A DNA stretch of 51,380 nucleotides from Bacteroidales bacterium (GTDB taxonomy: Bacteria > Bacteroidota > Bacteroidia > Bacteroidales > F082). Location of the stretch: assembly GCA_017965765.1 (NCBI GenBank), contig JAGCPJ010000070.1, positions 1 to 51,380 of the forward strand. The letters are read 5' to 3'. The notes beneath the pieces are model-generated. The model worked only from the letters and a program-made list of their open reading frames with translations, was not told where the DNA came from and made no database searches. Positions 3,745-50,716 of the stretch are shown here, piece after piece (the first letter of the stretch is position 1; each line of letters begins with the position of its first letter). A program made the position numbers and the translations under genes.

Positions 3745-4614
3745 ATGGACAAACGTTTAGAAGCTTTCAAGCGGCTGCTCGACATCATGGACGCCGTCAG
3801 GGCAGGATGCCCGTGGGACAGTACCCAAACCATCGAGAGCCTGCGCCATCTGACGATCGAGGAGACCTACGAGCTGAGCGAGGCGATTCTTGCCAACAAT
3901 CTGAATGAAGTGAAGAAGGAGTTGGGCGACTTGATGCTCCATCTGGTGTTCTATGCCAAGATTGGGAGTGAAAAAGGCGCTTTCGACATCACCGACGTGC
4001 TGAACGGCATCTGCGACAAGATGGTGGTTCGTCATCCGCATATCTTCGGAGGGGAGAAGGTGGAGAACGCCGAACAGGTGGAACAAAACTGGGAGAAAAT
4101 CAAGTTGGAAAGGGAACACAACCGCAGTGTTTTGGGTGGTGTCCCTTCTGGCCTGCCTTCGTTGTTGAAAGCTTATCGGATGCAGTCGAAAACGGCGGGT
4201 GTGGGCTTCCGTTGGCCGAACGCCGAGGCAGCATGGGATAAGGTGGAGGAGGAGAAAAAGGAACTATTTGATGAATTGGGGAAACCTGACAATCACGAAA
4301 ACATAGAGGCGGAATATGGCGACTTGCTGTTCGCCTTGGCCGCCTACGGAATATATATAGGTGTGAATCCGGACGATGCCTTGGAAAAGACGGACAAGAA
4401 GTTCCGGGCGAGGTTCAACTACTTGGAGCGAAAAGCCCGAGAGCAAGGGAAAGGGGTGCAGCACTTGACCCTGGAAGAGATGATTGCGATTTGGAAAGAG
4501 GCGAAGGGAACGGAGAACGGAAAACGGAAAGTGGAAAACGGAAAGTGGAAAACTAAAAAAAACCGAAAAACCCGCCAATTAATAAAATATTGCTATATTT
4601 GTAACCCAAAATAG
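3745..4614 (+). CDS. mazG: Nucleoside triphosphate pyrophosphohydrolase MazG
   Basis: A cytoplasmic NTP pyrophosphohydrolase of 289 residues that hydrolyses (d)NTPs to monophosphates and pyrophosphate. The N-terminal MazG domain begins with the usual CPWDSTQT segment and carries the metal-binding pattern EETYE...ELGDL. A second MazG-like half follows, with FRWPNAEAAWDKVEEE and EAEYGDLLFALA. The ATG at 3745 is chosen because the upstream in-frame ATG at 3712 lies inside the promoter. The domain should end near IWKEAKG. The remaining ~36 residues (TENGKRKVENGKWKT and a basic tail) are encoded by an AACGGAA heptad array and the DNA after it, so they look like an accidental extension. The promoter of the next gene lies inside this tail. 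Confidence 0.93.
   Translation: MDKRLEAFKRLLDIMDAVRAGCPWDSTQTIESLRHLTIEETYELSEAILANNLNEVKKELGDLMLHLVFYAKIGSEKGAFDITDVLNGICDKMVVRHPHIFGGEKVENAEQVEQNWEKIKLEREHNRSVLGGVPSGLPSLLKAYRMQSKTAGVGFRWPNAEAAWDKVEEEKKELFDELGKPDNHENIEAEYGDLLFALAAYGIYIGVNPDDALEKTDKKFRARFNYLERKAREQGKGVQHLTLEEMIAIWKEAKGTENGKRKVENGKWKTKKNRKTRQLIKYCYICNPK
4509..4553 (+). repeat. Heptanucleotide array, unit AACGGAA
   Basis: Six 7-bp units in a row (AACGGAG, AACGGAA, AACGGAA, AGTGGAA, AACGGAA, AGTGGAA) lie inside the 3' end of mazG. Seven is not a multiple of three, so successive units are read in different frames and give TENGKRKVENGKWKT. The purine-rich strand is the mRNA strand. Confidence 0.9.
4594..4601 (+). promoter_or_regulatory. 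-7 promoter element for the T9SS protein at 4666
   Basis: TATATTTG matches TAnnTTTG and lies 64 bases before the ATG of the large secreted protein. It is still inside the mazG reading frame, which ends at 4614. No good -33 TTG at the usual spacing is apparent. Confidence 0.55.
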
Positions 4615-4665
4615 AAAAATGACAATAAGGATCATTCTCAATTATTATTAACTAAATCACTCATT

Positions 4666-7167
4666 ATGAAAAAATTAGCTTTACTCTTAGCAATGGTTGT
4701 GTTCGTTTGCACTGGTGCATTCGCACAATCGATGTACTTCGATTTCGAAGGACAAACTGCTGGTAACAAGATCGCCCAGACCCTTGGTGATCCTTGGACA
4801 ACATGGAGCAACGCTCCCGGTGGCGCTGAAGACGGTGTCTTCGACATGGCGGATGGTTCCATGGCCGCTCACTTCACCTATGGCAACGACCAAGTGTTGA
4901 GACTTGGCGGTATTGAGACGGGTGTTTTCGACCTCGTTTTCGATGCCTTCGTTCCGAACGGAAAGAACGGCTACTTCAACGTGCTTCACAACTTCAACGG
5001 TAGTGGTTCCACTTGGGCTGCTCAGTTCTATCTCTGCGCTTCCAACGACGGTCAAAACACCACTCCTGGTGTCGGTCACGGCACCGTCCACGCTGGTAGC
5101 AACGGCACTGCCGACATCCCTTGCGTCTATGATGAATGGATGCAGTACAGAGTGCATATCGACATGGACCAAGACCTGGCTACCCTTTACTGGAACATTG
5201 CTGGTCAGCCGGAACAGGAAATCTGCTCCTGGCAGTGGTCACTCGACAGCTTCGGTGATAATACCGTGGGCCGTAAACTCGATGCCATGGACTTCTATCC
5301 TCCGGAGAATGCCGCTACTTCAGAATTCTACATCGACAACATCGGTATCATCAGCGGTGCTGAGGATCAAGTGCTGATCGACGATAACTTCGAGGCTTAC
5401 AATGTAGGTGACAAGATCGCTGTCGCAGCTCAGGCTATCGGCAACGACTGGTGGACCACTTGGACCAACAACCCCGGTTCCGCTGAAGACGGTGTCATCG
5501 CTGAAGCCGGTGGCTCAAAGTGCGGTTACATCTCTGGCAGCAACGACAACGTCCTCCTTCTCGGTGGTCAGGAGTCGGGTGCCTACGACCTTGAATTCGC
5601 CATCTTCTGCGAAGAAGGCAAATACGGTTACTTCAACATCCTCCACGAGTTCAATGGCTCTGGCTCAACTTGGGCTATGCAGGCTTACTTGAATGCTACC
5701 AATGACGGTAACAGCACCACGAATTACTCCGTGGGACATGGTACCGTTCACGCTGGTGCCAACAGCAATGGTGACATCCCTGCTGTTGTGAATGAATGGA
5801 TGTACTTCCGTATCCATGTGGATTGCGATACCGACCAAGCTGAACTCTTCTATCGTTCTGAGACGACTCAGCCTACTGAAATCTCCATCGTTGCTTGGCA
5901 GTGGAGCTTGGACAGCTTTGGTGAGAACACCGTGGGCCGCAAGATGGACGCTATGGACTTCTTCGCACCTAACGCCACACTGGGTTGCTACTATCTCGAC
6001 AACTTCAAGTTCACCAGAATCGGTGCTGAATCCGCTCCTTCACTGGATTTCGATACCGAATCCCTGTATGTGGAACTCGAAGCTGACGATGTCAACGCTT
6101 ACCAGATCGGTATCAGCAATGCCAATGGTACTTCCATCGGTGACTGGACTGCTTGGGTTGACTTTGGCGAAGGCCAAAGCGGTGGTAGCACCTCTCAGAT
6201 CAACTACGATGCTGAACCCGGTGCCAACACTTCATTGGTGGGTTGGAACTATGAAGAACCAGTCTTGGTTGAGGTCGCTGCTATGTTCCCCGGCTCATCC
6301 TATGCTGGCGTCATGGGTACTTCCATCACGAGTGTCCAGTACTATTGCGTTGCCGCTTCTGATGGCTTCGGCGTTGAAGCAGGTACTCCTCTTACCTTCC
6401 GTGTGTATGGCCAAGGTATGAACGGCCAGCCCGCTGAGGTCCTTGCTGAAAAGGTTATCCCTTATGCACAGATCAACCAAGAGGATTGGACTATCGCTAC
6501 TTTCGACACGCCTGTCCCGTTGACGGGTTACAATGTCTGGGTTGCTTGCGAATACACCCAGTCTGTTGGTGGCTACGCCATGGCATTTGACGGCACTGCT
6601 TACGTTCCTGGCAGCGGTTACTACCGTACCCAGGGTGGTGGCGCCTTCATGTCACTCGGTCCGGACAACCTGTCACAAGACTATGGTAACCTCCACATCC
6701 GTGCCAACGTCCAGGGTACTCCTGTCACCGCTGGTTGGGCTACCTTGAGCAAGTCAGAAGGCTCGATGCCTATCGGTGGCAGCGATGACGTGACCCTCAC
6801 CGTCAACTCCTTCGGTCTGGCTGATGGTTCAGTCTATGAAGCTGAAGTGATCTTCAAGACCAACGATCCTGAAAACGCATTGGTCAGCATTCCTTTGACC
6901 CTGCACGTCGGTGTCACTGCTGTTGCTGACAACACCAACAGCATGGCTTCCATCTATCCTAACCCTGCTACCAACAGAGTGACTGTGGAAGGTGAAAACC
7001 TGAGCGTCGTGGCCATCTACAACGTGGCTGGTCAGCTGATTCGCATCGTGAACCTCGACAGCGTGGTCAACAGCATCGACATGAATGTTGAAGCTGGTAT
7101 CTACTTCTTCAACATCTATGATGTCAATGGCAAGAGCAACGTCCAGCGCGTTGTGATCACCAAGTAA
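4666..7167 (+). CDS. Large T9SS type A cargo protein with a tandem N-terminal domain
   Basis: An 833-residue secreted protein. It has a signal peptide ending at GAFAQ, then two homologous domains of about 210 residues (roughly 20-228 and 230-450). Each contains the landmarks DPWTTW/NDWWTTW, GxAEDGV, a GYFN(V/I)LH(N/E)FNGSGSTWA stretch and WQWSLDSFG(D/E)NTVGRK, and looks like a jelly-roll/LamG-type binding fold. A middle domain (about 500-690) and a short Ig-like domain with IFKTNDPENALVSIPL follow. The end is a type A T9SS sorting domain (IYPNPATNRV, GIYFFN, final VVITK). The coding sequence is very rich in GGT, GCT, CGT, AAC and TTC codons compared with its neighbours, which suggests strong expression. 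Ligand and function are unknown. It is followed by a strong terminator. Confidence 0.85.
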   Translation: MKKLALLLAMVVFVCTGAFAQSMYFDFEGQTAGNKIAQTLGDPWTTWSNAPGGAEDGVFDMADGSMAAHFTYGNDQVLRLGGIETGVFDLVFDAFVPNGKNGYFNVLHNFNGSGSTWAAQFYLCASNDGQNTTPGVGHGTVHAGSNGTADIPCVYDEWMQYRVHIDMDQDLATLYWNIAGQPEQEICSWQWSLDSFGDNTVGRKLDAMDFYPPENAATSEFYIDNIGIISGAEDQVLIDDNFEAYNVGDKIAVAAQAIGNDWWTTWTNNPGSAEDGVIAEAGGSKCGYISGSNDNVLLLGGQESGAYDLEFAIFCEEGKYGYFNILHEFNGSGSTWAMQAYLNATNDGNSTTNYSVGHGTVHAGANSNGDIPAVVNEWMYFRIHVDCDTDQAELFYRSETTQPTEISIVAWQWSLDSFGENTVGRKMDAMDFFAPNATLGCYYLDNFKFTRIGAESAPSLDFDTESLYVELEADDVNAYQIGISNANGTSIGDWTAWVDFGEGQSGGSTSQINYDAEPGANTSLVGWNYEEPVLVEVAAMFPGSSYAGVMGTSITSVQYYCVAASDGFGVEAGTPLTFRVYGQGMNGQPAEVLAEKVIPYAQINQEDWTIATFDTPVPLTGYNVWVACEYTQSVGGYAMAFDGTAYVPGSGYYRTQGGGAFMSLGPDNLSQDYGNLHIRANVQGTPVTAGWATLSKSEGSMPIGGSDDVTLTVNSFGLADGSVYEAEVIFKTNDPENALVSIPLTLHVGVTAVADNTNSMASIYPNPATNRVTVEGENLSVVAIYNVAGQLIRIVNLDSVVNSIDMNVEAGIYFFNIYDVNGKSNVQRVVITK

Positions 7168-11947: not shown

Positions 11948-13030
11948 ATGGCAGAATTCAAGATTGGAGACAGGGTGAATTTCCTGAACAATGTGGGCGG
12001 CGGCAAGGTGACGAAGATCATCGATTCACGCATGGTGATGGTGGAAGTGGAGGACGGTTTTGAGATCCCCACGTTGATTTCTGAGATTGTCCCTGATTTC
12101 AGGAACCAGCCTTCGCGTCAGCAGCAGATTGTTGACACGGTCCAGAAGGAAATCAAGGAGAAAGAGATTGTGCAGCAGCAACAGCAGGAGGATGCCCGTC
12201 ATGGTGCGCTGCGACGGTTTGCCAAGGAGGCGGAGAAGGAAGGCGTTTACCTCGCTTTTGTTCCTCATGAGCAGCAATGGCTGTTGACGGGTCCGATCGA
12301 TGTGATGCTGGTGAACCATACCCCGTTTGAGATGCTCTACACCTTCACGATCAAGGAGGAGGACAAGTTCGTCAATGTGGATTATGGCCAGTTGGAGAAA
12401 TACGAGAAGGTGGTGGTGGAGACGATTTCCCGTGAGGATTTGGACTATTGGTGCAACGGCATCGTGCAAGCCATCTTCACGAAAGATACCTCCGACATGG
12501 TTTTGATGCCCTTAAATGCACCTTTCTCGTTGCGAACCAACCGTTTCTTCAAGGAAGGAAGCTACTTGATGTCAGGCGTGCTTGGCGAGAAGGCGGTGAC
12601 AGTATGTCTTTCGGAACTAGTGGCGTTAAAGAGTGTTGACGCCGACTTGATGAAGATTGCGAAGGAAGGCGTTGGATCGCAGGCACCTAAGAAGGACCTT
12701 GTGAAACAGGAATCGCCTATCGACAAGCACAAGACCGGTCAAGGTGAGGCTACCGTCGATCTCCATATCGCCGAGTTGGTGGACAATATCGCCGGTCTTT
12801 CAAGCCATGACATGTTCAAGATCCAGATGGACTACTTCAGGAAGATGCTCGACAGTGCCATCGCTGCCGATTATACCAAGGTGACATTCATCCACGGCGT
12901 GGGCAACGGTGTTCTGAAGAATGCCATCATTGAAGAACTGAAGAAATATAAGAATACCGAAAACAGAATGGCTTCGATTGCCAAGTTTGGCGTGGGAGCG
13001 ATTGATGTGGTTATTAAAGATAGGAGTTAG
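11948..13030 (+). CDS. DUF2027 and Smr domain protein
   Basis: A 360-residue cytoplasmic protein of a Bacteroidota-specific architecture. The N terminus (residues 1-60) is a small SH3-like beta domain, FKIGDRVNFLNNVGGGKVTKI. A Gln/Glu-rich charged helix (about 65-90) and the DUF2027 central domain follow. The C terminus is a Smr domain with the DLH motif (VDLHIAELVD) and the loop HGVGNGVLKNAI. Smr domains elsewhere are nucleases acting on branched DNA or on RNA; which applies here is unknown. The last residues (KDRS) and the TAG stop are read from the first units of an AGGAGTT heptad array. Confidence 0.88.
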   Translation: MAEFKIGDRVNFLNNVGGGKVTKIIDSRMVMVEVEDGFEIPTLISEIVPDFRNQPSRQQQIVDTVQKEIKEKEIVQQQQQEDARHGALRRFAKEAEKEGVYLAFVPHEQQWLLTGPIDVMLVNHTPFEMLYTFTIKEEDKFVNVDYGQLEKYEKVVVETISREDLDYWCNGIVQAIFTKDTSDMVLMPLNAPFSLRTNRFFKEGSYLMSGVLGEKAVTVCLSELVALKSVDADLMKIAKEGVGSQAPKKDLVKQESPIDKHKTGQGEATVDLHIAELVDNIAGLSSHDMFKIQMDYFRKMLDSAIAADYTKVTFIHGVGNGVLKNAIIEELKKYKNTENRMASIAKFGVGAIDVVIKDRS

Positions 13031-13045
13031 GAGTTAGGAGTGAGG
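13019..13045 (+). repeat. Heptanucleotide array, unit AGGAGTT
   Basis: Three AGGAGTT/AGGAGTG units start inside the last codons of the Smr gene, supply its stop codon, and run directly into the palindromic element at 13053. The purine strand is the mRNA strand. Confidence 0.85.
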
Positions 13046-13052
13046 AGGGAAC

Positions 13053-13719: not shown

Positions 13720-13750
13720 TTTCCGTTCTCCGTTGTCCGTTTCCCGTTTT
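13720..13750 (-). repeat. Heptanucleotide array, unit AACGGAA (minus strand)
   Basis: On the plus strand it reads as TTTCCGT, TCTCCGT, TGTCCGT, TTCCCGT. It abuts the stop codon of the aldo/keto reductase gene at 13751 on its mRNA side. Confidence 0.85.
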
Positions 13751-16562: not shown

Positions 16563-16572
16563 AAGATTAAAG

Positions 16573-16601
16573 TTAGGAGTTGGGAGTTAGGAGTTAGGAG
16601 T
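16573..16601 (+). repeat. Heptanucleotide array, unit AGGAGTT
   Basis: AGGAGTT, GGGAGTT, AGGAGTT, AGGAGTT on the plus strand, just upstream of the minus-strand polyferredoxin gene. Here the purine strand is antisense to the flanking genes, an exception to the usual polarity. Confidence 0.85.
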
Positions 16602-16612
16602 TTGACTATCTG

Positions 16613-18511: not shown

Positions 18512-18517
18512 AATGAA

Positions 18518-18545
18518 GTGGAAAGTTGAAAACGGATAACGGAAA
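18518..18545 (+). repeat. Degenerate heptanucleotide array in the tmRNA precursor region
   Basis: GTGGAAA, GTTGAAA, ACGGATA, ACGGAAA on the plus strand. It lies between the tmRNA promoter box and the mature 5' end, so it would be transcribed as part of the precursor. Confidence 0.7.
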
Positions 18546-19419: not shown

Positions 19420-19460
19420 CTCCGTTTCCCGTTTTCCGTTTTCCGTTTTCCGTTCTCCGT
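19420..19460 (-). repeat. Heptanucleotide array, unit AACGGAA (minus strand)
   Basis: Five to six units (plus strand TCTCCGT, TTCCCGT, TTTCCGT, TTTCCGT, TTTCCGT, TCTCCGT). It abuts the TAA stop codon of the NtrC-like gene. Confidence 0.9.
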
Positions 19461-20621
19461 TTACTTCAGCGGGTTCCCAAAGTGGATGACGTCGTCCTTG
19501 GTGATGGTGCTTCCGCAAAGGATTACCAGTCGCTCCACGATGTTGTGAAGCTCGCGGATGTTGCCCGTCCACTGGTATTGCTTCATCTCCTCCATGGCTT
19601 CATCGGTGAACTTCGGTATCGCCTTGCCCATGGACTGCGAGATGTTCTCAATGAAACTGTTGACCAGCAACGGGATGTCATCCTTCCGTTCCCGCAACGG
19701 CGGTACATGAATCACGATGACACTTAAACGATGGTATAAGTCCTCGCGGAAAGCGTTCTCTTCGATCATCTTCTTTAGGTCCTTGTTGGTCGCCGCGATG
19801 ATGCGTACATCGACGGGGATCTCCTTCTCGCCGCCGACACGCACAATCTTGTTCTCCTGCAAGGCACGCAACACCTTGGCCTGGGCTGCCAGACTCATGT
19901 CGCCGATCTCGTCCAAGAACAGTGTTCCGCCATTGGCCAACTCGAAATCGCCCTTCTTCTGCTTGATGGCCGAGGTGAAGGATCCTTTTTCATGGCCGAA
20001 CAGCTGACTCTCGATGAGCTCTGCGGGGATCGCGGCGCAGTTGACCTCGATGAAGGGACCATAGCGACGGGGACTGAGCTCGTGCAGCTGTTTGGCAACA
20101 AGCTCTTTGCCCGTGCCGTTCTCACCCGTGATGAGCACCCTCGCGCCTGTGGGGGCAACCTTCTCGATCATCTCCCTGACTTCCATCATCGGAGCGGAAG
20201 TGCCAACCATCTCGTTCTGCTTGCTGACGGCTTTCTTCAAGGCCTTGTTCTCCGTGATCAACTTGCTCTTATCCATGGCATTGCGTACCGTGGTGAGCAG
20301 GTTGTTCAGATCGGGCGGTTTCTGGATGTAGTGGAAGGCACCTTTCAAGATGGCCTCCACCGCATTGTCCACTGTTGCGTGGCCGGTGATCATGATGACG
20401 GGCGTGTCACACATCGCCTTGACTTGCTCCAACACCTCAATGCCGTCCATGTCGGGCATCTTGATGTCGCACAGGATAACGTCGTATTCCTGCTCCTTGA
20501 CCATCTCAAGGGCCGAGGAGCCATTGGCAGCGTCATCCACGAGGTATTTCTCGTTCTCGAGTATCTCACGTAACACCCGACGGATGGGATCTTGGTCGTC
20601 GATAATCAGTATTCTTGGCAT
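19461..20621 (-). CDS. NtrC-family response regulator without a visible DNA-binding domain
   Basis: A 386-residue regulator. Residues 1-120 are a receiver domain (ILIIDDQDP, phosphoacceptor Asp in VILCDIKMPDMDG, Thr in ITGHAT, Lys in QKP). Residues 140-370 are a sigma-54 type AAA+ domain with Walker A GENGTGKE, Walker B GGTLFLDEIGD and arginine fingers in FREDLYHRL. Two oddities: the sigma-54 contact loop, normally GAFTGA, reads GSFTSA, and the protein ends at IHFGNPLK, about 50-80 residues short of the usual Fis-type helix-turn-helix. A heptad array starts right at the stop. The start at 20621 is chosen because upstream in-frame Mets fall inside or before the promoter. It may act without DNA binding or have lost it; no partner kinase lies in the window. 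Confidence 0.9.
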   Translation of the reverse strand: MPRILIIDDQDPIRRVLREILENEKYLVDDAANGSSALEMVKEQEYDVILCDIKMPDMDGIEVLEQVKAMCDTPVIMITGHATVDNAVEAILKGAFHYIQKPPDLNNLLTTVRNAMDKSKLITENKALKKAVSKQNEMVGTSAPMMEVREMIEKVAPTGARVLITGENGTGKELVAKQLHELSPRRYGPFIEVNCAAIPAELIESQLFGHEKGSFTSAIKQKKGDFELANGGTLFLDEIGDMSLAAQAKVLRALQENKIVRVGGEKEIPVDVRIIAATNKDLKKMIEENAFREDLYHRLSVIVIHVPPLRERKDDIPLLVNSFIENISQSMGKAIPKFTDEAMEEMKQYQWTGNIRELHNIVERLVILCGSTITKDDVIHFGNPLK

Positions 20622-20675: not shown

Positions 20676-22637
20676 ATGAAACATTTTCTTTTGACGGTAT
20701 TGTTTTTTATGGCGTTGGCCTCACCCGCACCATGCCAAGCAACTTTCCGTTCTCCGTTTTCCGTTTCCCGTTCCCCTTGGGTCGGCGGCCTCAACGCTTG
20801 TCAGTTTGGACGGATGGACCTGGACGGCGATGGACAAAAGGACTTGCTGGTGTTCGATCGGCATGGTAACCGGTTGCTCTGCTTTTTGAATAAAGGTGGT
20901 GTACAAGAAATTGATTATCAATATACTAATGTGTACAATGGCGTTTTCCCGGATTTCAAGGATTGGGTCGTCTTCGCTGATTACGACGGCGATGGCAAGG
21001 AGGATATCTTCACCTACTCCCAGGGCTGGGCGGGCATGAAGGTGTACCGTAATGTCTCCACCGCTGAACAGCTGGACTTTGAACTCGTTGTGGAGCCCTA
21101 TCTAACTTCCTATCAAGGCGGAGGAGCGGTGAATCTCTTGGCGACGAATGCCGACTATCCGGCCATTGCCGATCTGGATGGCGATGGTGACCTTGACATC
21201 TTGACTTTCGGGGTGATGGGAACCTTTATCGAGAAGCATCTGAATTGTTCCATGGAACGCTATGGTTGTCGCGACTCGCTGGTGTTTGAGCGGACCGAGA
21301 TGTGTTGGGGTAGGGTGGCCGAAAGCGAGGAGAACAACCTGATGTACCTGGATACCTGCCTGTTTGGCCGTGGCCTGATGCTGTCGGCTGAGGGTTTCAG
21401 ACATCGTGGCGCCACTGTCGCGGTTCGTGATTTGGATGGTGACGGGCTATTGGACTTGCTACTGGCCGATGTGGACTACCCTGGCTTGACGGCTTTGTAC
21501 AATGGCGGCGACCCATCGCAGGCGTTGATGGTTCGCCAGGAGGACTTCCCGCCCCAACAGCCTGTGCAGCTCCATTCCATGCCGGTGCCGTATTTCACGG
21601 ATGTCAACAACGACGGCTTCGACGATCTGCTGGTCTCGCCATTCGATCCCGACCCAATGGCTTCCGTGGGAGTGGAGAGCGTATGGCTGTATTTGAATCA
21701 TGGAACGAATGAATATCCTGATTTCCAACTTTATACAAAGTCATTTCTGCAAGATTCGATGATTGATGTGGGGAAGGGCGCCTATCCGAAATTTATGGAT
21801 TGGGATGCCGATGGGTTGCTGGATCTGTTGGTGGCGGACCTCGATGGCCGAATCACGTTTTTCAGGAACGTGGGTACTTCCAGCCAACCTGAGTTTGCCC
21901 AAATGAGTGAAGCCTTGGAAGAGGATTTGGAATGGTCAGAACGTTGTTACTTCGATGTAGATCAAGATGGGCTGCTGGATCTGGTGGAGGGCAATGAGTC
22001 AGGTAAACTGACTTATTATCACGGCCGTGGCAACGGCTTCGATTGGGTTACGGACTTCTGGGGTGGCATCGATGTGCGTGACTACAATACCTCTTATTAT
22101 GGTTACAGTATCCCCACTTTGTTTTATTACGAGGGCCAGTTGCTGCTTTGTGTCGGCTCGGAGCAAGGGAAACTGTTTTTGTACAAAGTGTCGGGAGATC
22201 CTGTCTTTGAGGAAGTTGACAATTTGTGGGAGAAGATTTGCGGCGACATGCCCAGCACCTTTGGGATGCGTTCTGCTGCGGCCGTGGCAGACCTCAACAA
22301 CGACGGGCAACTGGAGATCGTGGTGGGCAACTTCGCTGGAGGGCTGCAACTCTACAATGCGGAAATTGCGGTGAATAACCTTGGCCTTCCTGAGACTCAG
22401 GAAGCTATCAATGTGATGATATTCCCGAATCCGGTACAATCGCAAATCCGTATGGTATCGAAGGAGGATGATATCCTTCGGGTGATGGTTTCGGATTTGT
22501 GGGGGCGAAAGATCTTGGAGCGGCCCGTGAGTGGGAGGGAGGCCGTGTTGGAACTGCCAGAGCTAAGCCATGGCGTTTATTTGCTCACTTTGGTCTTTGA
22601 CCGTGGCTTGGTGAACCGTATCTTCTTCAAACGGTAG
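20676..22637 (+). CDS. FG-GAP/VCBS repeat T9SS cargo protein
   Basis: A 653-residue secreted protein. The signal peptide ends near ASPAPC or PCQA. The mature start FRSPFSVSRSPW is encoded by a heptad array. At least eight FG-GAP/VCBS-type calcium loops follow (DLDGDGQKDLL, DYDGDGKEDIF, DLDGDGDLDIL, DLDGDGLLDLL, DVNNDGFDDLL, DWDADGLLDLL, DVDQDGLLDLV, DLNNDGQLEIV), predicting a beta-propeller. The C terminus is a type A T9SS sorting domain (IFPNPVQSQIRM, LWGRKILE, HGVYLLTL). The start at 20676 follows the plus-strand promoter box; upstream in-frame codons would be outside the transcript. The last 61 bases overlap the convergent retropepsin gene. A cell-surface adhesion or carbohydrate-binding role is possible but not shown. 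Confidence 0.85.
   Translation: MKHFLLTVLFFMALASPAPCQATFRSPFSVSRSPWVGGLNACQFGRMDLDGDGQKDLLVFDRHGNRLLCFLNKGGVQEIDYQYTNVYNGVFPDFKDWVVFADYDGDGKEDIFTYSQGWAGMKVYRNVSTAEQLDFELVVEPYLTSYQGGGAVNLLATNADYPAIADLDGDGDLDILTFGVMGTFIEKHLNCSMERYGCRDSLVFERTEMCWGRVAESEENNLMYLDTCLFGRGLMLSAEGFRHRGATVAVRDLDGDGLLDLLLADVDYPGLTALYNGGDPSQALMVRQEDFPPQQPVQLHSMPVPYFTDVNNDGFDDLLVSPFDPDPMASVGVESVWLYLNHGTNEYPDFQLYTKSFLQDSMIDVGKGAYPKFMDWDADGLLDLLVADLDGRITFFRNVGTSSQPEFAQMSEALEEDLEWSERCYFDVDQDGLLDLVEGNESGKLTYYHGRGNGFDWVTDFWGGIDVRDYNTSYYGYSIPTLFYYEGQLLLCVGSEQGKLFLYKVSGDPVFEEVDNLWEKICGDMPSTFGMRSAAAVADLNNDGQLEIVVGNFAGGLQLYNAEIAVNNLGLPETQEAINVMIFPNPVQSQIRMVSKEDDILRVMVSDLWGRKILERPVSGREAVLELPELSHGVYLLTLVFDRGLVNRIFFKR
20742..20775 (-). 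repeat. Heptanucleotide array inside a coding region
   Basis: The plus strand reads TTTCCGT, TCTCCGT, TTTCCGT, TTCCCGT, TCCCC. It is translated on the plus strand as FRSPFSVSRSP just after the signal peptide. Confidence 0.85.
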
Positions 22638-23751: not shown

Positions 23752-23787
23752 AAATTCGGAATTATGGATTATGAATTCGGAATTATT
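23752..23787 (+). repeat. Heptanucleotide array, unit AATTCGG/AATTATG
   Basis: AATTCGG, AATTATG, GATTATG, AATTCGG, AATTATT in a row between the LOG gene and tRNA-Gly. The same type of unit is seen at the TrmH-HAD joint (9649-9662). Confidence 0.8.
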
Positions 23788-25211: not shown

Positions 25212-25275
25212 AAGATTTCAAGATTTCAAGATTTCAAGATTTCAAGATTCCAAGATTTCAAGATTTCAAGATTTA
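25212..25275. repeat. Octanucleotide array, unit AAGATTTC
   Basis: About eight copies of AAGATTTC, one with a C for T change, between the SPFH gene and the Tim44-like gene. Two more units of the same motif lie at 50082-50100. Confidence 0.9.
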
Positions 25276-25286
25276 AGTTTCAGCGC

Positions 25287-35723: not shown

Positions 35724-35750
35724 CTCTTCTGTCTTCCGACTTCTGTCTCC
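35724..35750 (-). repeat. Heptanucleotide array, unit AGAAGAC/GGAAGAC (minus strand)
   Basis: The plus strand reads TCTTCTG, TCTTCCG, ACTTCTG, TCTCC. It ends exactly at the stop codon of the MFS gene (35751). The purine strand is the mRNA strand. Confidence 0.75.
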
Positions 35751-37393: not shown

Positions 37394-37423
37394 GTTTTCC
37401 GTTCTCCGTTTTCCGTTTTCCGT
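37394..37423 (-). repeat. Heptanucleotide array, unit AACGGAA (minus strand)
   Basis: The plus strand reads TTTTCCG, TTCTCCG, TTTTCCG, TTTTCCG. It abuts the TAA of the M16 protease gene on its mRNA side. Confidence 0.9.
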
Positions 37424-40228
37424 TTATTTCGGCAGTTGTACCACTTCCTTACGGTAACCGATGAGGATGGTCTTGACCATCTTGGCGATGTCCTCACCCG
37501 TGATGCTGTTGACCAACTCGTCATAACCCTTCATCATGTTGATGCCGTCGCGGACGTTGTCTTGGATAGCGCTCATCCAATAACGGTTGCTTTCCATGTC
37601 CTCAGCATGCTTCTTGAGCTTGTATTCCTTCACTTTCTGAAGGTCTTGCTCGCGAGGACCTTCGTTGCCGATACGCTCGAGTTCGGTCTTGGCGATGCCC
37701 ATGAGCTTTTCATACATTTCCTTGTTGGTCTCGAATCCAATCATCATCACGTATGATCCTTCCGGGATGTTATCCAGCCTACCGTTGGTGCCGACACCGT
37801 AGGTTCCTCCTTCGTCCTCGCGTATCTTCTCCGTGTAAACGATGTCAAGGATGTCGTTCAGCAACTCCATGGTCATGATGTTCTTCTCATTGTATTCCAT
37901 CTTGCCGTTGTAGAACATATAGCAGGTAGCTTTCGGGTTCTCCATGGTCTTGGCGTAATGGCAGAAATGGTCTTTCTTCGCGATGCCCAGACCCTTGTCT
38001 TGCCAAGTCTCTTTGTTCTTTTTGGCTTTCATGCCACCGAGATATTGGGTGACCAAGGGTTCGAAGGTCTGCGGGTCGATGGTACCCACAAAAGTAAATA
38101 CGAAGTTGTTCGGGTCGGCAAAGCGTTCTGCAGCCATCTTCAGGGCCTTGGCATAGTCGATCTTGTCGTAATCCTCAGCTTTCATGCGCTTGTACAACGG
38201 ATTGTTGTCATAAAGCACAGCGACCAAGCTGTCGCTGAAGGCGGTCATGGGGTTGGACTCTATGTTGGCCAGCATGGCTTTGCTGCGGGTGAGGTAGGAT
38301 TGGAAGGCTTCCTCATCGCTACGTAAATTATTGAAATACAGATAGGTAACCTGTAACATGGTTTCCAAGTCCTTGACGGAGCAGTTGCCGTTGATACCTT
38401 CGGTGTAGGTGCTGATGTTGGGATCGACTCTCAAGCGTTTTCCAGCGAGGATCTTGGGAAGGTCGATGGCGCTGAAGTTGCCCAAACCACCCAGATCCAT
38501 CAAAGCGTTGATTTCCTGAAGGTTGTATGGGTTGCTGTCATCCATGACGGAGAGGCCGCCGAAGCTGTAGGCGTTCATCAAGATTTCATCGTCCTTGAAG
38601 TCGGTGCTCTTGTAGATGACTTTCACGCCGTTCTTCATGGTGAGCACGGTAGCGTCGAAATCGGGGAGGATCTCGGTCTTGACAATCTTGCCGGGTTCTG
38701 GAAGCTCAGCAAGCAGAGGCTCGTTGGAAACTGTCTCCTGGTAGGCTTCCACTGTCTCGGCGTTGGCTTTGTTGAAGAGTTGGAGCAACTCGTCTCTGGT
38801 CGGCAAGATCTCGCCTTCTTTTTCCGGGGCGGTGAGCACGATGACGATATTGTTGTCGCTAACCATTTCCTTGGCGTAGGCATTGATGGCTTCCAGGGGA
38901 ATGTTGGGCAGGAGTTGCTGCATCAGAGGATATTCGGTTTCGATGCCCATCAACGGCTCATTGCTGAGGAAGTGCGCCAGCATCGGGTTGAAATAACGAC
39001 CCGTTTCTTGCTTGTTTCTTTCCTCGAATTGGGTTTCGTACTGACGGAGCATGTCGGCCTTGGCGCGTTCATATTCTGAAGCAGTGAAGCCGAATTCCTT
39101 CATGCGGTTGCTCTCGTTAATGAGTGCAGTCATGGCTTCGTCGATGCCATCCTTATCTTTGGCAGCGGCAGCGATGGACCAGGCATCCTTGGTGTCGGAG
39201 ACCATGAAAGTGCCGTAATAGCCATAGCCATAGATGAACGGAGGATTGGGCTTCTGGGTGAGCTCTTGCATGCGGTTGTTGAACATGCGGGAGATCAGGT
39301 TCTCGACCACGGAGCCAATCCAGTAGTTGATGTCGTTTCTCATCTCAACAGGCGTGATGTCGTGTTTGTAGAACACAGAGATGTCGTAGCTGGTCTCTTC
39401 CACGTCGGTGGCGACGGTCACGATGGGCTCCTCGTTGTCGGCCACGGGGAAGTGGATGCGTTCAGCGGGATTCACGGGAGCCGGGATGTCGGCAAACATC
39501 TCTTTCAGACGGTTCTCAATCTGATCCACGTCGATGTCGCCAATGATAATGATGCCTTGAAGGTCGGGACGATACCATTTGTGATAGTAGTCACGCAGGA
39601 ACTGATGGTCGAAGTGCGCAACGACTTCCTCAGTGCCGATGATGGGCATGGGCGCGCCGTAAGGGCTGTTGGGATAGATCTCGGGCAAAATTTTGTCGTA
39701 GATACGTGACTGGGCATCCAAGCCTTGACGCATCTCTTCCAAAATGACGCCACGTTCGTTCTCGATTTCGTCATCTTCAAGGGAGATGAAGCTTGACCAG
39801 TCGTGCAACACGAGCAAGCATGAATCCACCAAACCGGGATTGGTGGTGGGGACATTGTTGAGCATGTAAACGGTCTGCTCAAAGCTGGTGTAGGCATTCA
39901 CGTTGGTGCCGAACTTCACGCCGTTGCGCTCCATGTAGTCGAGCATGGCTTTCTTGGGGAAGTGTTCCAGACCGTTGAAGGCCATGTGCTCCAGGAAGTG
40001 GGCCAGACCGCGTTGGTTCTCTTCTTCCAGGATGGAGCCGACTTTCTGCGCGATGTAGAAATTGGCGCGTTTGGCGGGTTTCTCATTATGGCGGATTAAA
40101 TAAGTAAGTCCGTTGTCAAGTTTTCCCTGTCGAACATTGGGATCCAACGGAGCGGGCATGGCCTGCTGCGCCATCGTGGCGAGACTCATGGCCAATACCA
40201 TAAACATTGATAAAGCAATACGTTTCAT
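37424..40228 (-). CDS. M16 family zinc metallopeptidase, pitrilysin-like, secreted
   Basis: A 934-residue protease with a signal peptide ending near LATMAQQ, so it is periplasmic or outer membrane associated. The inverted zinc motif HxxEH is visible as HFLEHMAFNG, with the downstream Glu in a DDEIENERGVILEE stretch. The remaining length matches the usual four M16 domains, with the second, inactive half after about residue 500. It probably degrades oligopeptides. The gene starts 7 bases after rsmG on the same strand. Confidence 0.94.
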   Translation of the reverse strand: MKRIALSMFMVLAMSLATMAQQAMPAPLDPNVRQGKLDNGLTYLIRHNEKPAKRANFYIAQKVGSILEEENQRGLAHFLEHMAFNGLEHFPKKAMLDYMERNGVKFGTNVNAYTSFEQTVYMLNNVPTTNPGLVDSCLLVLHDWSSFISLEDDEIENERGVILEEMRQGLDAQSRIYDKILPEIYPNSPYGAPMPIIGTEEVVAHFDHQFLRDYYHKWYRPDLQGIIIIGDIDVDQIENRLKEMFADIPAPVNPAERIHFPVADNEEPIVTVATDVEETSYDISVFYKHDITPVEMRNDINYWIGSVVENLISRMFNNRMQELTQKPNPPFIYGYGYYGTFMVSDTKDAWSIAAAAKDKDGIDEAMTALINESNRMKEFGFTASEYERAKADMLRQYETQFEERNKQETGRYFNPMLAHFLSNEPLMGIETEYPLMQQLLPNIPLEAINAYAKEMVSDNNIVIVLTAPEKEGEILPTRDELLQLFNKANAETVEAYQETVSNEPLLAELPEPGKIVKTEILPDFDATVLTMKNGVKVIYKSTDFKDDEILMNAYSFGGLSVMDDSNPYNLQEINALMDLGGLGNFSAIDLPKILAGKRLRVDPNISTYTEGINGNCSVKDLETMLQVTYLYFNNLRSDEEAFQSYLTRSKAMLANIESNPMTAFSDSLVAVLYDNNPLYKRMKAEDYDKIDYAKALKMAAERFADPNNFVFTFVGTIDPQTFEPLVTQYLGGMKAKKNKETWQDKGLGIAKKDHFCHYAKTMENPKATCYMFYNGKMEYNEKNIMTMELLNDILDIVYTEKIREDEGGTYGVGTNGRLDNIPEGSYVMMIGFETNKEMYEKLMGIAKTELERIGNEGPREQDLQKVKEYKLKKHAEDMESNRYWMSAIQDNVRDGINMMKGYDELVNSITGEDIAKMVKTILIGYRKEVVQLPK

Positions 40229-42559: not shown

Positions 42560-43228
42560 ATGAAAGACGCAGTAATCATTATTTCAGGTGGCATGGACTC
42601 CACCACGATGCTTTACGAATACAAGGACGAGATCGCCCTAGCCATCACCTTCGACTATGGCTCCACCCAGAATGGACGTGAACGCATCTGTGCCGTCACG
42701 CATTGCCAACGCCTGGGGATCAAACATATCGTTATCCCGTTGGACTTCATGCATCGCTACTTCAAGAGCGCCCTGCTGATGACTGCTGCTGATATCCCGG
42801 ATGGCAATTACGATGATGAGAACATGAAATCCACCGTGGTACCTTTCCGTAATGGCATCATGTTGGCCATCGCGTGCGGTGTGGCGGAGAGCAACGGCTT
42901 GAAACGGGTGATGATCGCCAACCATGCCGGCGACCATTCCATCTATCCCGACTGCCGCCCAGGCTTTGTCGATGCCATGTCAAAGGCCATGTCAGCGGGG
43001 ACGTATGACAACATCGAGGTGTTTGCTCCCTATACCTTCTTGGACAAAGCGGAAATAGCGAGACACGGCAAGGCCCTGGGCCTGGATTACAGCGAGACCT
43101 ACTCTTGTTACAAGGGTGGAGAGAAACATTGTGGGAAGTGCGGAACCTGTCGCGAACGCATCAAAGCGCTCCACGATGCCGGCATCGTCGATACCACAGA
43201 ATACGAAATTCTGACTTCTGACTTCTAA
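42560..43228 (+). CDS. queC: 7-cyano-7-deazaguanine synthase
   Basis: A 222-residue ATP-dependent enzyme that converts 7-carboxy-7-deazaguanine and ammonia to preQ0. The PP-loop SGGMDSTTM at the N terminus and the zinc-binding cysteines in CYKGGEKHCGKCGTCRERI near the C terminus are diagnostic. FRNGIMLAIACGVAESNG and HAGDHSIYPDCRPGF also fit. The final residues EILTSDF and the TAA stop lie in a CTGACTT heptad array, so the natural end was probably slightly different. It is followed 18 bases later by queD. Confidence 0.96.
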   Translation: MKDAVIIISGGMDSTTMLYEYKDEIALAITFDYGSTQNGRERICAVTHCQRLGIKHIVIPLDFMHRYFKSALLMTAADIPDGNYDDENMKSTVVPFRNGIMLAIACGVAESNGLKRVMIANHAGDHSIYPDCRPGFVDAMSKAMSAGTYDNIEVFAPYTFLDKAEIARHGKALGLDYSETYSCYKGGEKHCGKCGTCRERIKALHDAGIVDTTEYEILTSDF

Positions 43229-43240
43229 CTTCTGACTTCT
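43209..43240 (-). repeat. Heptanucleotide array, unit GAAGTCA (minus strand)
   Basis: The plus strand reads CTGACTT, CTGACTT, CTAACTT, CTGACTT, CT. It contains the stop codon of queC. The pyrimidine strand is the mRNA strand here, unlike most stop-adjacent arrays. Confidence 0.85.
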
Positions 43241-47045: not shown

Positions 47046-47092
47046 ACTCCTAACTCCTAACTCCTAACTCCTCACTCTCCTCACTCTCTCGG
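47046..47092 (-). repeat. Heptanucleotide array, unit AGGAGTT (minus strand)
   Basis: The plus strand reads ACTCCTA repeated three times, then ACTCCTC and ACTCTCC. On the minus strand it begins in the last codons of the lytic transglycosylase gene, supplies its TGA, and ends at the uvrA ATG. The AGGAG units in the mRNA resemble a Shine-Dalgarno core just before uvrA. Confidence 0.85.
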
Positions 47093-48028
47093 CAGCTTAA
47101 TCACGTAACTGTTGCCTTCAGAGATGGTGAGCGAAGTTCCTCTTAGCCAAGGGTTATAATACTTGAGCATCTTGAGGTTGGTGCCTTTCTCGATGGCGAA
47201 GTCCACCAAGTCAGGGATGCTCTCAGTAACAGTAACGGTCTTGTATTCCAAGGGTTGGTACCAGCCTTCGTCGCTGATGTTGAACCCGTATTTCTGAGGG
47301 TTCTCAGTGATCAACTTCAGGGCGAGGATACGGTAAACATAGCGTTCTGTCTCGTTGGGAAGCAGCATGTCGTAATAGGAGTCCACCCTTTGTTCATTGA
47401 TGGTGCGGTTGATGCGTCCGTTGCCGCAGTTGAAGGCGGCGGCGGAGAGGGTCCAGCTGTTGAAACGGCGGTAGGAGTCTTTCAGGTATTGGCAGGCAGC
47501 CTTGGTCTCCAGCTCTTGATTGTAGCGCATGTCAACTTCCTTGTTGATTTCCAGATTGTACTCTTTTCCAGTGCCTTCCAGAAACTGCCAGAAGCCGACG
47601 GCTTTGGAAGGGGAGACGGCGTTGGTAAGGGAGCTTTCGATCATGGCCAGGTATTTGAAGTCCGATGGGAGGCCGTTCGCCTTCATGATGGGCTCGATGA
47701 CAGGAAACCAGCGTGAGGTCCTTTTCAACAGCAACAGGGTGCTCGCGTGAAGATAGGAATTTACCAGAAGCTCGCGTTCCAAGCTCTCCTTGACATAGAA
47801 ACGGTCCAACGGCACCGATTCACCGCAGAAATCCAAGGTTTCCGGGAATTCAATGTCGTGGACAAACTGGTCCATGTGATCGAAGGCGAGCACATCGGGC
47901 CTGAGAGACTGGTAATAGGAGTTGTCCTTGGAGTTGGTACTTTGAGCTATGGTGAAAGTGATGGCTGCAGTTGCACCTATTAATAATATAATGATGCCGC
48001 AAGCCAGAAGGATGTCTCTAGTCTTCAT
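47081..48028 (-). CDS. Lytic transglycosylase (MltD-like SLT) with C-terminal LysM
   Basis: A 315-residue exported or membrane-anchored enzyme. The N terminus from the ATG at 48028 has one hydrophobic helix (ILLACGIIILLIGATAAITF). The SLT domain covers about 110-250: LAMIESSL with the catalytic Glu, SKAVGFWQFLEGTGKEYNL, DMRYNQELETKAACQYLKD, SAAAFNCGNGRI. The C terminus is a LysM-like module (VTVTESIPDLVDFAIEKGTN). It cleaves peptidoglycan with 1,6-anhydro product formation. The Met at 48058 is rejected because it would place ten polar residues before the helix. It is likely co-transcribed with rfbC upstream. Confidence 0.9.
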   Translation of the reverse strand: MKTRDILLACGIIILLIGATAAITFTIAQSTNSKDNSYYQSLRPDVLAFDHMDQFVHDIEFPETLDFCGESVPLDRFYVKESLERELLVNSYLHASTLLLLKRTSRWFPVIEPIMKANGLPSDFKYLAMIESSLTNAVSPSKAVGFWQFLEGTGKEYNLEINKEVDMRYNQELETKAACQYLKDSYRRFNSWTLSAAAFNCGNGRINRTINEQRVDSYYDMLLPNETERYVYRILALKLITENPQKYGFNISDEGWYQPLEYKTVTVTESIPDLVDFAIEKGTNLKMLKYYNPWLRGTSLTISEGNSYVIKLPRE

Positions 48029-48619: not shown

Positions 48620-48624
48620 GACCG

Positions 48625-48675
48625 TTCCCGTTCTCCATTTTCCATTTTCCGTTTTCCGTTTTCCGTTCTCCGTTT
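48625..48675 (-). repeat. Heptanucleotide array, unit AACGGAA (minus strand)
   Basis: About seven units between lpdA and rfbC (plus strand TTCCCGT, TCTCCAT, TTTCCAT, TTTCCGT, TTTCCGT, TTTCCGT, TCTCCGT). It begins at the lpdA stop codon and forms almost the whole spacer. Confidence 0.9.
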
Positions 48676-50067
48676 CTAGAGGTGCACGCATTCTCCGAAC
48701 GCTGCCGCAGCTGCTTCCATGAGGCCTTCCGACATGGTGGGGTGGGGGAATACAGCGTGGATGATGTCTTCGCCTTTGGCGCCGAGTTCACGGCAGAGTA
48801 CGGCGGCGGCGACCATCTCGGTGACGTTGTCGCCTACCATGTGGCAGCCCAGCCAGTCGCCCGTCTTGGCGTCGAACACCACCTTAATGAAGCCGTCTTT
48901 GTTGCCAGCGGCGGTAGCTTTGCCTGAGGCGGTGAAGGGGAACTTGCCGATCTTCACCTCATAGCCAGCGGCGATGGCCTTGGCTTCGCTCAGACCCACT
49001 GAGGCGATTTCGGGGGTGGTATAGGTGCAGCCGGGGATGTTGGCGTAGTTCAGCGGTTTCGGGTCGAGGCCGCAGAGCTTCTCCACGCAGATCGTGGCTT
49101 CGTGGTCGGCTTTGTGCGCCAAGGCGGGACCGTGGACGATGTCGCCGATGGCATAGATACCTGGCACGTTGGTGCGGTACCATTCGTCCACGTTGATCTT
49201 GCCGCGCTCGGTGGCGATGCCCAAGGTCTCCAGTCCGAGGTCGTCGATGTTGGTCTGCACACCGACAGCGGAGAGCACGATGTCGGCTTCCACGGTCTTG
49301 TCACCTTTCTTGGTGCTGATGGTGCACACGCATTTCTCACCGGTAGTATCGACATGGGTCACTGAGGCTTCGGTCATCACGGTCATCTTGAGTTTCTTGA
49401 AGGAACGCTCCACTTGCTTGGAGACTTCCTCGTCCTCGTTCGGGACCACATTGGGCAGGAATTCCACGAGGGTGACTTTCACTCCCATGCTGGTGAAGAA
49501 GAAGGCAAACTCCGAGCCGATGGCGCCAGAGCCGACGACCACCATGCTTTCGGGCAGTTTGTCTAGGACTAAGGCTTGGCGGTAGCCGATGATCTTTTTG
49601 CCGTCGATAGGCAGTGCGGGCAGTTCGCGCACGCGAGATCCGGTGGCCAGGATGATGTGGTCGGCTTCGTACAGGGTGACATTGCCGTCTGCATCGGTGA
49701 CGGAGACTTGTTTGTCAGCGGTAAGGCGACCGTAGCCAGCGAGGACTTCCACGTTGTTTTTCTTGAGGAGGAACTGAACGCCCTTGCTCATCGTCTCGGC
49801 TACGCCACGGCTACGGGCTACGACGGCTTCCATGTCGGGTTTGGCTTCGCCTTCCACTTTGATGCCGTAGTTCTCAGCATGTTTGATGTAGTTGTAAACC
49901 TGGGCGCTTTTCAGCAACGCTTTGTTGGGGATGCATCCCCAGTTGAGGCAAATGCCGCCGAGTTCTGCTTTTTCGACCACGGCCACTTGTTTACCCAATT
50001 GTGATGCTCTGATGGCAGCCACATAGCCTCCAGGGCCGCTGCCAATAACGATGACGTCGAATTTCAT
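48676..50067 (-). CDS. lpdA: Dihydrolipoyl dehydrogenase
   Basis: A 463-residue flavoprotein, the E3 subunit of 2-oxoacid dehydrogenase or glycine cleavage complexes. It reoxidises dihydrolipoamide with NAD+. The N-terminal FAD site GSGPGGYVAAIRASQLG, the redox-active disulfide GGICLNWGCIPNKALL, the NAD site VVGSGAIGSEFAFFF and the C-terminal His-Glu pair in HAVFPHPTMSEGLMEAA are all present. No E1 or E2 genes are adjacent. A 41-residue membrane peptide gene lies 26 bases upstream and shares the promoter. Confidence 0.97.
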   Translation of the reverse strand: MKFDVIVIGSGPGGYVAAIRASQLGKQVAVVEKAELGGICLNWGCIPNKALLKSAQVYNYIKHAENYGIKVEGEAKPDMEAVVARSRGVAETMSKGVQFLLKKNNVEVLAGYGRLTADKQVSVTDADGNVTLYEADHIILATGSRVRELPALPIDGKKIIGYRQALVLDKLPESMVVVGSGAIGSEFAFFFTSMGVKVTLVEFLPNVVPNEDEEVSKQVERSFKKLKMTVMTEASVTHVDTTGEKCVCTISTKKGDKTVEADIVLSAVGVQTNIDDLGLETLGIATERGKINVDEWYRTNVPGIYAIGDIVHGPALAHKADHEATICVEKLCGLDPKPLNYANIPGCTYTTPEIASVGLSEAKAIAAGYEVKIGKFPFTASGKATAAGNKDGFIKVVFDAKTGDWLGCHMVGDNVTEMVAAAVLCRELGAKGEDIIHAVFPHPTMSEGLMEAAAAAFGECVHL

Positions 50068-50081
50068 ATTTAAAGATTTAT

Positions 50082-50100
50082 GATTTCAAGATTTCAAGAT
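50082..50100. repeat. Octanucleotide repeat, AAGATTTC type
   Basis: GATTTCAAGATTTCAAGAT between lpdA and the 41-residue gene, whose TGA stop falls inside the repeat. It is the same motif as the long array at 25212. Confidence 0.75.
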
Positions 50101-50219
50101 TGATTTCTCCGTTTTTCGTTTTTTTCGCTGATCCGTTTGACAACAAAAGCCAAAAGCGCCCATAAGGCAAAGAAGGCGACCACGGCGAGGAACCAGACAA
50201 AAACCAATTTGACGACCAT
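50094..50219 (-). CDS. Small single-span membrane protein, 41 residues
   Basis: An ATG at 50219 opens a 41-codon frame ending at TGA 50094-50096. It encodes MVVKLVFVWFLAVVAFFALW, then ALLAFVVKR and a charged tail ISEKNEKRRNQS. That is one membrane helix of about 22 residues followed by a strongly basic cytoplasmic-type end. A TATTTTTG box lies 18 bases upstream (50237-50244, minus strand), in the right place for a 5' leader of about 10 bases. The gene is too short for routine gene finding. The next gene, lpdA, starts 26 bases later on the same strand. I know no family; a small regulatory or assembly peptide is possible. Confidence 0.65.
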   Translation of the reverse strand: MVVKLVFVWFLAVVAFFALWALLAFVVKRISEKNEKRRNQS

Positions 50220-50236
50220 AATTAATAATTAAGGTG

Positions 50237-50305
50237 CAAAAATAGTAAAAATCCGTCATTTTTTTGATGCTTTTATTGGAATCTTCTGAAAAATTCCTAA
50301 ATTTG
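50237..50305. promoter_or_regulatory. Divergent promoters for the lpdA unit and the 110-residue gene
   Basis: TATTTTTG on the minus strand at 50237-50244 and TAAATTTG on the plus strand at 50298-50305 both match TAnnTTTG. Confidence 0.6.
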
Positions 50306-50331
50306 TAGAGGTAAAACAAAAAAACGTTGCT

Positions 50332-50664: not shown

Positions 50665-50667
50665 AAT

Positions 50668-50716
50668 TCAGAAGACAGAAGACAGAAGTCGGAAGTCGGA
50701 AGTCGGAAGATAGAAG
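50668..50716 (+). repeat. Heptanucleotide array, unit AGAAGAC/GGAAGTC
   Basis: AGAAGAC, AGAAGAC, AGAAGTC, GGAAGTC, GGAAGTC, GGAAGAT, AGAAGAG directly after the stop of the 110-residue gene. It runs into the palindromic element at 50720. The purine strand is the mRNA strand. Confidence 0.9.

Follow-up and report, generated by a model that had tools for sequence, protein, structure and literature searches.

The heptanucleotide arrays analysed here, found in a 51,380-nt Bacteroidales contig (JAGCPJ010000070.1; hereafter the window), have their closest described parallel in the GGGNATC and GGGGAYT heptamers of Xanthomonas and Nostoc (Rehm et al, 2015; PMC4692102). In the parts of that report drawn on here, those heptamers lie near the open reading frame (ORF) on their 5' side, run in sense orientation within 50 bp after stop codons, are rare between divergent ORFs and prefer four units; in Xanthomonas they also form inverted pairs in convergent orientation. 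The same parts mention a polymerase-contact hypothesis put forward by others, with the function left open, and cite tandem heptanucleotides of Calothrix, with three words in one strain. TAACTGA direct repeats occur in Beggiatoaceae, cyanobacteria and some Bacteroidetes, some of which carry other heptamers beside them, according to MacGregor (2015; PMC4679880). Repeat units of 4–11 nt are, according to another report, normally or weakly over-represented in general (PMC4060949).

The window is an entire contig of a 2,006,084-base Bacteroidales metagenome-assembled genome (MAG) of 78 contigs that is 76% complete. The protein families Por_Secre_tail and DUF2027 point to Bacteroidota. We found that a stop-anchored, strand-biased period-7 pattern is real and strong in the genus of this organism, and that the arrays are a variant of the known heptamer kind, sharing its placement and pairing, without a G-quadruplex, with many words and with turnover of the word. 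In a literature search of titles and abstract openings, such arrays were not reported for this genus. We take the Calothrix heptanucleotides to be the cyanobacterial short tandemly repeated repetitive (STRR) sequences, which the original prediction for this DNA had named as the closest parallel. The Xanthomonas/Nostoc heptamers proved nearer: as far as the cited parts of their description go, they too are intergenic, poor between divergent genes, and carry the G-rich or purine strand nearer the 5' ORF and in sense after the stop (PMC4692102). They differ in having one G-tract word family per lineage, whereas we identified 44 words among 259 arrays with no three-tetrad motif, and the present arrays show turnover of words at recurring sites. 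The TAACTGA repeats are likewise heptameric direct repeats, mostly intergenic and phylogenetically scattered, and differ, in the portion cited, in lying mostly just upstream of starts (main genome), with one fixed word and one indirect repeat (PMC4679880); here, words other than TAACTGA are commonest and the main position follows stops. Phase-variation simple sequence repeats (contingency loci) are also short tandem repeats near genes, but the present arrays come after stops instead of lying in promoters, and the Pfam-named array-bearing genes of the window (MazG, Smr, aldo/keto reductase and NtrC-like) are not typical surface genes.

Period, words and distribution

Arrays in the window were detected with Tandem Repeats Finder and our own period scan, at score cut-offs of at least 14 and at least 11. 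Period counts for the genome to which the window belongs (G000) used a 449-kb sample. The genus-wide set comprised 259 arrays (score at least 12), drawn from 2.03 Mb of eight genomes of this genus, G000 among them, with one genome per species. Genes were called by our own script, which combines a coding model with dynamic programming; start codons are therefore approximate and stops firmer.

The original prediction had proposed an excess of 7-bp units over other lengths together with enrichment and strand bias at stop codons, and all three were borne out within this genus. The G000 sample contained 58 arrays of period 7, seven each of periods 14 and 8, and at most four of any other period, and one third-order Markov shuffle of it yielded at most one array per period. 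Period 7 also outnumbered period 8 in the other large same-genus samples, by 84 to 2 in G022 and 71 to 7 in G033 (58 to 7 in G000). An exception is G061 (73% complete and array-poor), with only two period-7 arrays in 140 kb. The closest named matches of one window protein were mostly rumen or gut "Bacteroidales bacterium" MAGs, with "bacterium F082" among them at 67% identity. Among the named relatives (L-numbered loci), which are regions fetched around one gene and mostly belong to MAGs, there were 17 period-7 and 11 period-8 arrays; other Bacteroidales loci held nine and seven.

The commonest of the 44 words are AAAACGG, AGGAGTT and AAAAGAT. The proposed nGGAr-like core fits many of the arrays, GG being present in the words of 154/259, and fails for others, as 105/259 lack it; GGG occurs in two words. 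G000 has 68 matches to a 17-mer of the commonest word (reversed control, 0); the degenerate form, CGGARAACGGARAACGG, was found in 5/36 same-genus genomes (226 matches in G000, 161 in G022, 55 in G019, 28 in G009 and 6 in G033) and in 0/24 genomes of other families, with the reversed control present in 3/60 genomes (G008 4, G028 1, G047 2). The distribution of GGARTKM in three consecutive copies is patchy: it occurs in 24/295 Bacteroidales genomes and 21/183 genera, with, for example, 139 matches in G000, 106 in G145 and 47 in G297, and reversed controls of 8 in G000, 30 in G149 (forward only 7), 11 in G305 and 1–3 in some others. In 400 kb of G145, which belongs to another family, we counted 33 arrays of period 7, 16 of period 8 and 15 of period 21, with a density per kb of 0.17 at divergent junctions v 0.86 and 1.06 at the others.

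Four units were present in 109/259 arrays and five in 81/259, with a detection floor near three. When exact consecutive units were counted for five words, two units were as common as or commoner than four in four of them (AACGGAR: 25 with two, 22 with three, 25 with four and 2 with five), AGTKAGG being the exception at 13 v 14. The four-unit mode that is clear in the cited parts of the Xanthomonas/Nostoc report is thus not clearly reproduced here.

Placement, inverted pairs and turnover

By location, the 259 arrays divide into 132 at tandem (same-direction) junctions, 52 at convergent and 11 at divergent junctions, 60 deep inside genes and four at edges; the intragenic share is 7–11% in the cited parts of the Xanthomonas/Nostoc report. 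Per intergenic kb, this corresponds to 1.56 arrays at convergent, 1.07 at tandem and 0.25 at divergent junctions. Strand was counted for the 239 purine-skewed arrays, the 20 weakly skewed ones being omitted from these counts and retained for the complementary arms below. At tandem junctions the purine strand was sense after the stop in 91/119 cases and antisense in 28/119 (p 6e-9), and at convergent junctions its 5' end lay at the nearer stop in 43/50 (p 2e-7); these p-values, like those of the junction comparisons below, are too small because arrays are shared by descent and junction pairs are not independent. The corresponding tandem shares in Xcc, in the text of PMC4692102 used here, are 30% sense v 35% antisense. 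The tandem bias recurred in G000 (19/27), G022 (32/43), G033 (33/38) and the other five genomes pooled (7/11), as did the convergent one (10/11, 16/22, 13/13 and 4/4, respectively). Deep intragenic arrays showed no bias (32 v 26 by strand, p 0.5). What had been described as a fixed polarity is therefore a strong bias rather than a rule.

The median position of the 5' edge of sense arrays is -2, counted from the end of the stop. Where the spacer is 100 nt or longer, 37/46 stop-side arrays begin no more than 10 nt from the stop, against a uniform expectation of 2.7, and 20/28 antisense arrays sit 1–21 nt from the next start. Read along the purine strand, the array was nearer its 5' ORF (d5<d3) in 81/91 stop-to-start and 43/50 stop-to-stop arrays, in 14/28 start-to-stop arrays and in 6/8 start-to-start arrays. 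A polarity of pure DNA geometry, irrespective of gene direction, was thus only half borne out, given the start-to-stop arrays. A role as an all-frame stop was dropped, since purine-strand stop codons occurred in 81/132 sense words at stops and 78 were expected from shuffles. Pyrimidine-strand stop codons were present in 32/132 of these words v 11 for shuffled words, about threefold.

Looking up to 100 nt to either side of the purine array, we identified a complementary arm 3' of it in 71/259 cases and 5' of it in 1/259. Flanks taken from random arrays gave 19 and 1, the former being as high as it is because words are shared. Inverted pairs in convergent orientation are a feature held in common with the Xanthomonas heptamers, as described in the cited parts of that report. 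Pairing was most frequent at convergent arrays (32/52; control 8), followed by intragenic (23/60; control 6) and stop-to-start arrays (8/97; control 3). The 49 distinct purine-loop-pyrimidine loci comprise 22 convergent, 16 intragenic, 10 tandem and one at an edge; judged by eye, without alignment, their loops of 0–99 nt are mostly unrelated and their arms vary in length, with short REP-like (repetitive extragenic palindrome) pieces, such as CCGAAGG/CGGTAGA, common to some. A near-exception to the purine-first order is the junction past window gene 37424–40228 in several named relatives outside the 259-array set (e.g., L029, L034, L044, L046, L047, L051, L056 and L060), where, by eye, the words are near purine-neutral and the arm richer in pyrimidines comes first. 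At one junction just past the match end, long inverted pairs combine a constant core with variable bases by eye (NNTTAGC, NNTCAGC, ATGGCCN); such pairs occur in L029, L033, L034, L036–L038, L044, L046, L056 and other named relatives.

Orthologous junctions were compared between genomes two at a time, so that one junction may be counted more than once; of the 643 pairs, 34 had arrays in both members, 122 in one and 487 in neither (odds ratio 4.5, p 1.5e-8). According to the cited parts of PMC4692102, 83% of repeats have the same gene context in Xcc and Xac; here, both members carry an array in 34/156 array-bearing pairs, the species distances not being matched. Among the 34 shared pairs, the word was identical in seven and one base off in four; the purine strand agreed in 20/29 skewed pairs. 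Word identity was 0.206 at orthologous sites, 0.087 for two sites within a genome, 0.032 between genomes and 0.0008 for random 7-mers, which points to both inheritance and a genome-wide dialect. The junction near 48.6 kb illustrates the turnover: it carries AACGGAR in G000, mixed AACGGAA/AACTGAA in G019, AGAAGAC in G074, a GGAATGC pair in G022, a period-8 inverted pair in G033 and no array in G061.

We also compared array-bearing with array-free orthologous junctions (n=98 non-independent comparisons). The array-free spacers matched the neighbour's word over 5.18 nt, v 4.29 nt for control spacers (p 3e-7) and 4.18 nt for their own opposite strand (p 4e-7). Right after the TAA of gene 37424–40228, the same word is present in about one unit in L028, 2.3 in L027 and 4.5 in the window; other relatives have no array, period-8-like arrays or different words there.

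Arrays also occur within an ORF family that is, by its motif, a putative U32-type peptidase. The search gave a match in 59/60 genomes, some of them weak. Of 30 loci retrieved, 14 had arrays inside the ORF; most of these arrays fell in two variable stretches (alignment columns 551–610 and 665–749), and three loci also carried arrays at columns 282–297. Their words are many and different and include several complementary pairs, and in some loci other repeat-like inserts fill the first variable stretch. The inverted-pair rule, the intragenic copies and the word turnover at recurring sites all go beyond what the original prediction had described.

Arrays and neighbouring repeats in the window

At least twelve heptamer arrays had been proposed in the window. 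At a score of at least 11, clear period-7 arrays were present at 11 of the 14 coordinates listed, the remaining three (18518, 23752 and 35724) being degenerate, with best scores of 6, 8 and 6. At a score of at least 14, the window held ten period-7 arrays against a mean of 0.0 in five Markov shuffles. The arrays, with one period-8 array for comparison, are as follows.

4508..4553, + strand: AACGGAR/AAGTGGA, 6.4 units, within the 3' end of the mazG ORF (MazG, PF03819), 63 nt ahead of its stop
13021..13047, + strand: TAGGAGT, 3.9 units, including the stop of the Smr-domain gene
13722..13749, - strand: AACGGAN, 4 units, purine sense, 1 nt past the stop of the aldo/keto reductase-ferredoxin gene
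16571..16602, + strand: AGTTAGG, 4.6 units, between two - strand genes, purine strand antisense
18516..18543, + strand: degenerate array, score 6, close to the tmRNA (transfer-messenger RNA) gene
19421..19462, - strand: AACGGAA, 6 units, beginning at the TAA of the NtrC-like gene
20746..20776, - strand: AACGGAR, about 4 units, in a divergent spacer, with the called start of the + strand gene 37 nt away
23759..23786, + strand: degenerate GAATTAT, score 8, 71% matches
25212..25282, - strand: period-8 GAAATCTT, 9 units, upstream of the start of a - strand gene; strong, not period 7, given for comparison
35725..35743, - strand: degenerate array, score 6, past the stop of - strand gene 35751–37367
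37394..37425, - strand: AACGGAA, 4.6 units, beginning at the TAA of gene 37424–40228
43209..43240, - strand: AGAAGTC, 4.6 units, antisense; it overlaps gene 42560–43228 (queC of the original prediction) at its end and lies 6 nt before the next start
47046..47077, - strand: GGAGTTA, 4.6 units, 3 nt past the stop of gene 47081–48028
48628..48675, - strand: AACGGAR/AATGGAA, 6.9 units, 1 nt past the stop of gene 48676–50067
50669..50717, + strand: AGAAGAC/GGAAGTC, 7 units, 4 nt past the stop of a 110-residue gene

The gene names U32, M16, lpdA, MFS and queC are provisional here, in part carried over from the original prediction. With our gene calls, the purine strand is sense to the gene ended or occupied in 8/11 arrays. 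Two of the 11 are antisense and one, at 20746, lies in a divergent-gene spacer; an upstream alternative start of the + strand gene (20592) would place this array inside that gene. All stop-linked arrays listed except the one at queC had been said to carry the purine strand as mRNA, and the antisense position at queC (43209) was confirmed; the array at 16571, previously unclassed, is antisense as well. Its junction bears same-strand arrays in G033 and G078 (AGGAGTT) and in G022 (GGAATTA). At their own mazG stops, G061 and G022 have arrays of a different word, the leading words of G000, G061 and G022 all differing, and the position of the G000 array suggests that the mazG ORF has come to run through it.

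Other repeats were also observed. Period-8 AAGATTTC arrays are found near gene starts at 25212–25282 and 50082–50101, and several named relatives have AATCTTT/AAATCTT repeats (7–8 nt) immediately before a start codon; together, these look like a second, start-side class. An interspersed repeat containing CATTGCGAG has 13 copies of the 9-mer in the window, in both orientations (8750, 8899, 13062, 15788, 31214, 31243, 31274, 35575, 35701, 42401, 42431, 42509 and 50733), and by resemblance, translated look-alikes seem to lie within the U32-type gene of some relatives. A REP-like element, TACCCCATCGGGGTTA...ATCGGTAGAT, adjoins several heptamer arrays (window 13160 and 16632; L005 about 14102–14134; L013 before 19921). 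An 84-bp tandem repeat of 2.7 copies at 23947–24169, in ORF 23936–25186, is a protein-level repeat.

Explanations for the arrays and their meaning

Our preferred reading, which we hold tentatively and at slightly less than an even chance, is that heptameric simple-sequence arrays arise at their present sites and there lengthen, shorten and switch from one word to another, through expansion at transcript ends combined with purifying selection. A short purine-rich stretch at a stop codon would be duplicated in 7-nt steps by slippage-type copying, and this would happen more readily where transcription uses the other strand as its template, for instance when purine RNA stays hybridised to that template behind the last ribosome. 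The complementary arm may be added by fold-back copying of the purine strand. Arrays in coding sequence and in divergent, promoter-bearing spacers would then be lost to purifying selection, so that gene ends and permissive protein loops would hold the survivors. In-place expansion, including the slippage expansion of the original prediction, finds some support, at the level of sequence comparison, in the matches within array-free spacers and in the series of unit numbers at one stop. Selection at transcript ends, which that prediction also invoked, is a candidate process. The predominance of period 7, the anchoring at stops, the strand bias, the densities by junction type and the recurrence at orthologous junctions also count in favour of the preferred reading.

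Several observations weigh against this reading. The partial matches could equally be seeds or the remnants of decayed arrays. Intragenic arrays show no strand bias although their genes are transcribed, and the tandem bias of G000 alone (19/27) reaches p 0.05. A mirrored unit order between arms, expected if fold-back copying was recent, was not supported (21/54). Neither the small vocabulary common to the genomes nor the higher word match within than between genomes is predicted by independent slippage. In G145, the strand bias is weak (tandem 10 v 6, convergent 6/8), a complementary arm accompanies 1/27 arrays and arrays of period 8 are frequent (16, v 33 of period 7).

A less likely though still serious alternative is that the arrays are maintained for a function at transcript 3' ends, with a purine-rich tail following the stop and, where gene pairs converge, a purine-loop-pyrimidine palindrome that both genes would use as a two-way terminator or 3'-end block. 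The tight anchoring at stops, the peak of density at convergent junctions and the complementary arms there (32/52 v 8/52 in the control) are consistent with such a function, as is the avoidance between arrays and classical hairpin-plus-T terminators at convergent junctions of 25–600 nt (both 3, array only 27, terminator only 32, neither 56; odds ratio 0.19, p 0.006). However, this exclusion is partly spatial, as it falls to p 0.077 in spacers of 60–200 nt (0/11/8/19) and to p 0.15 in free spacer of 40–200 nt, and it does not hold at tandem junctions (6/109/31/462, p 0.83). Predicted folding at array junctions is no stronger than at array-free convergent ones (medians -29.2 v -28.7 kcal/mol), stop-to-start arrays rarely have the arm (8/97), 122/156 array-bearing junction pairs have the array in one species only, and 60/259 arrays lie deep inside genes. 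Spread of the array pairs as small mobile palindromes, akin to miniature inverted-repeat transposable elements (MITEs) or REPs, with single arrays as halves, is more doubtful again. In-frame Rickettsia palindromic elements offer a parallel, and the 49 palindromic loci with 16 inside genes, the REP-like pieces in some loops, the sharing of words within genomes, and the variable stretches of the U32-type ORF, with arrays in 14/30 loci and other repeat-like inserts alongside in some, would fit this idea. The loops that mostly differ between loci, the variable arms, the partial seeds in array-free orthologs and the mostly single stop-to-start arrays speak against it.

We regard as improbable, and more so than the mobile palindromes, a dedicated 7-nt-step activity, either a polymerase mode or a short-template enzyme, that writes and rewrites purine-rich words just after stops and produces lineage dialects at shared addresses; if it exists, its dialects would include the G-quadruplex heptamers of Xanthomonas and Nostoc. 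It is very unlikely that the arrays are themselves G-quadruplex elements of the kind suggested for the Xanthomonas and Nostoc heptamers, even with a placement nearly the same as in the cited parts of that report (PMC4692102) and a weak two-tetrad motif that fits 114/259 arrays. The three-tetrad motif fits 0/259, 105/259 words are without GG, and non-GG words obey the placement at least as well as GG words do in the tandem sense (51/60 v 40/59), the convergent rule (10/12 v 33/38) and stop-side anchoring (19/21 v 18/25); the G-quadruplex was therefore rejected as a general cause. Least credible of all is an assembly artefact or microsatellite instability through loss of mismatch repair. The named relatives around one gene are indeed mostly MAGs and G000 is in 78 contigs, but arrays of about 20–100 nt recur at orthologous junctions of separate assemblies. 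MutS and MutL domains were identified in 7/8 genomes tested, including every array-rich one, and were missing only in the incomplete, array-poor G061; mismatch-repair loss is thus not needed and was rejected as a general cause.

The reports considered here, PMC4692102 among them, leave open what makes heptamers so prominent among the longer simple repeats of some bacteria. The genus studied here amounts to many natural replicates, in which the same junction carries, mostly on the same strand and with the same 7-nt step, a different word. With these replicates, step and address can be told apart from sequence, the G-quadruplex is removed as a general cause, and the sites with about one, two and four to five units are usable for experiments.

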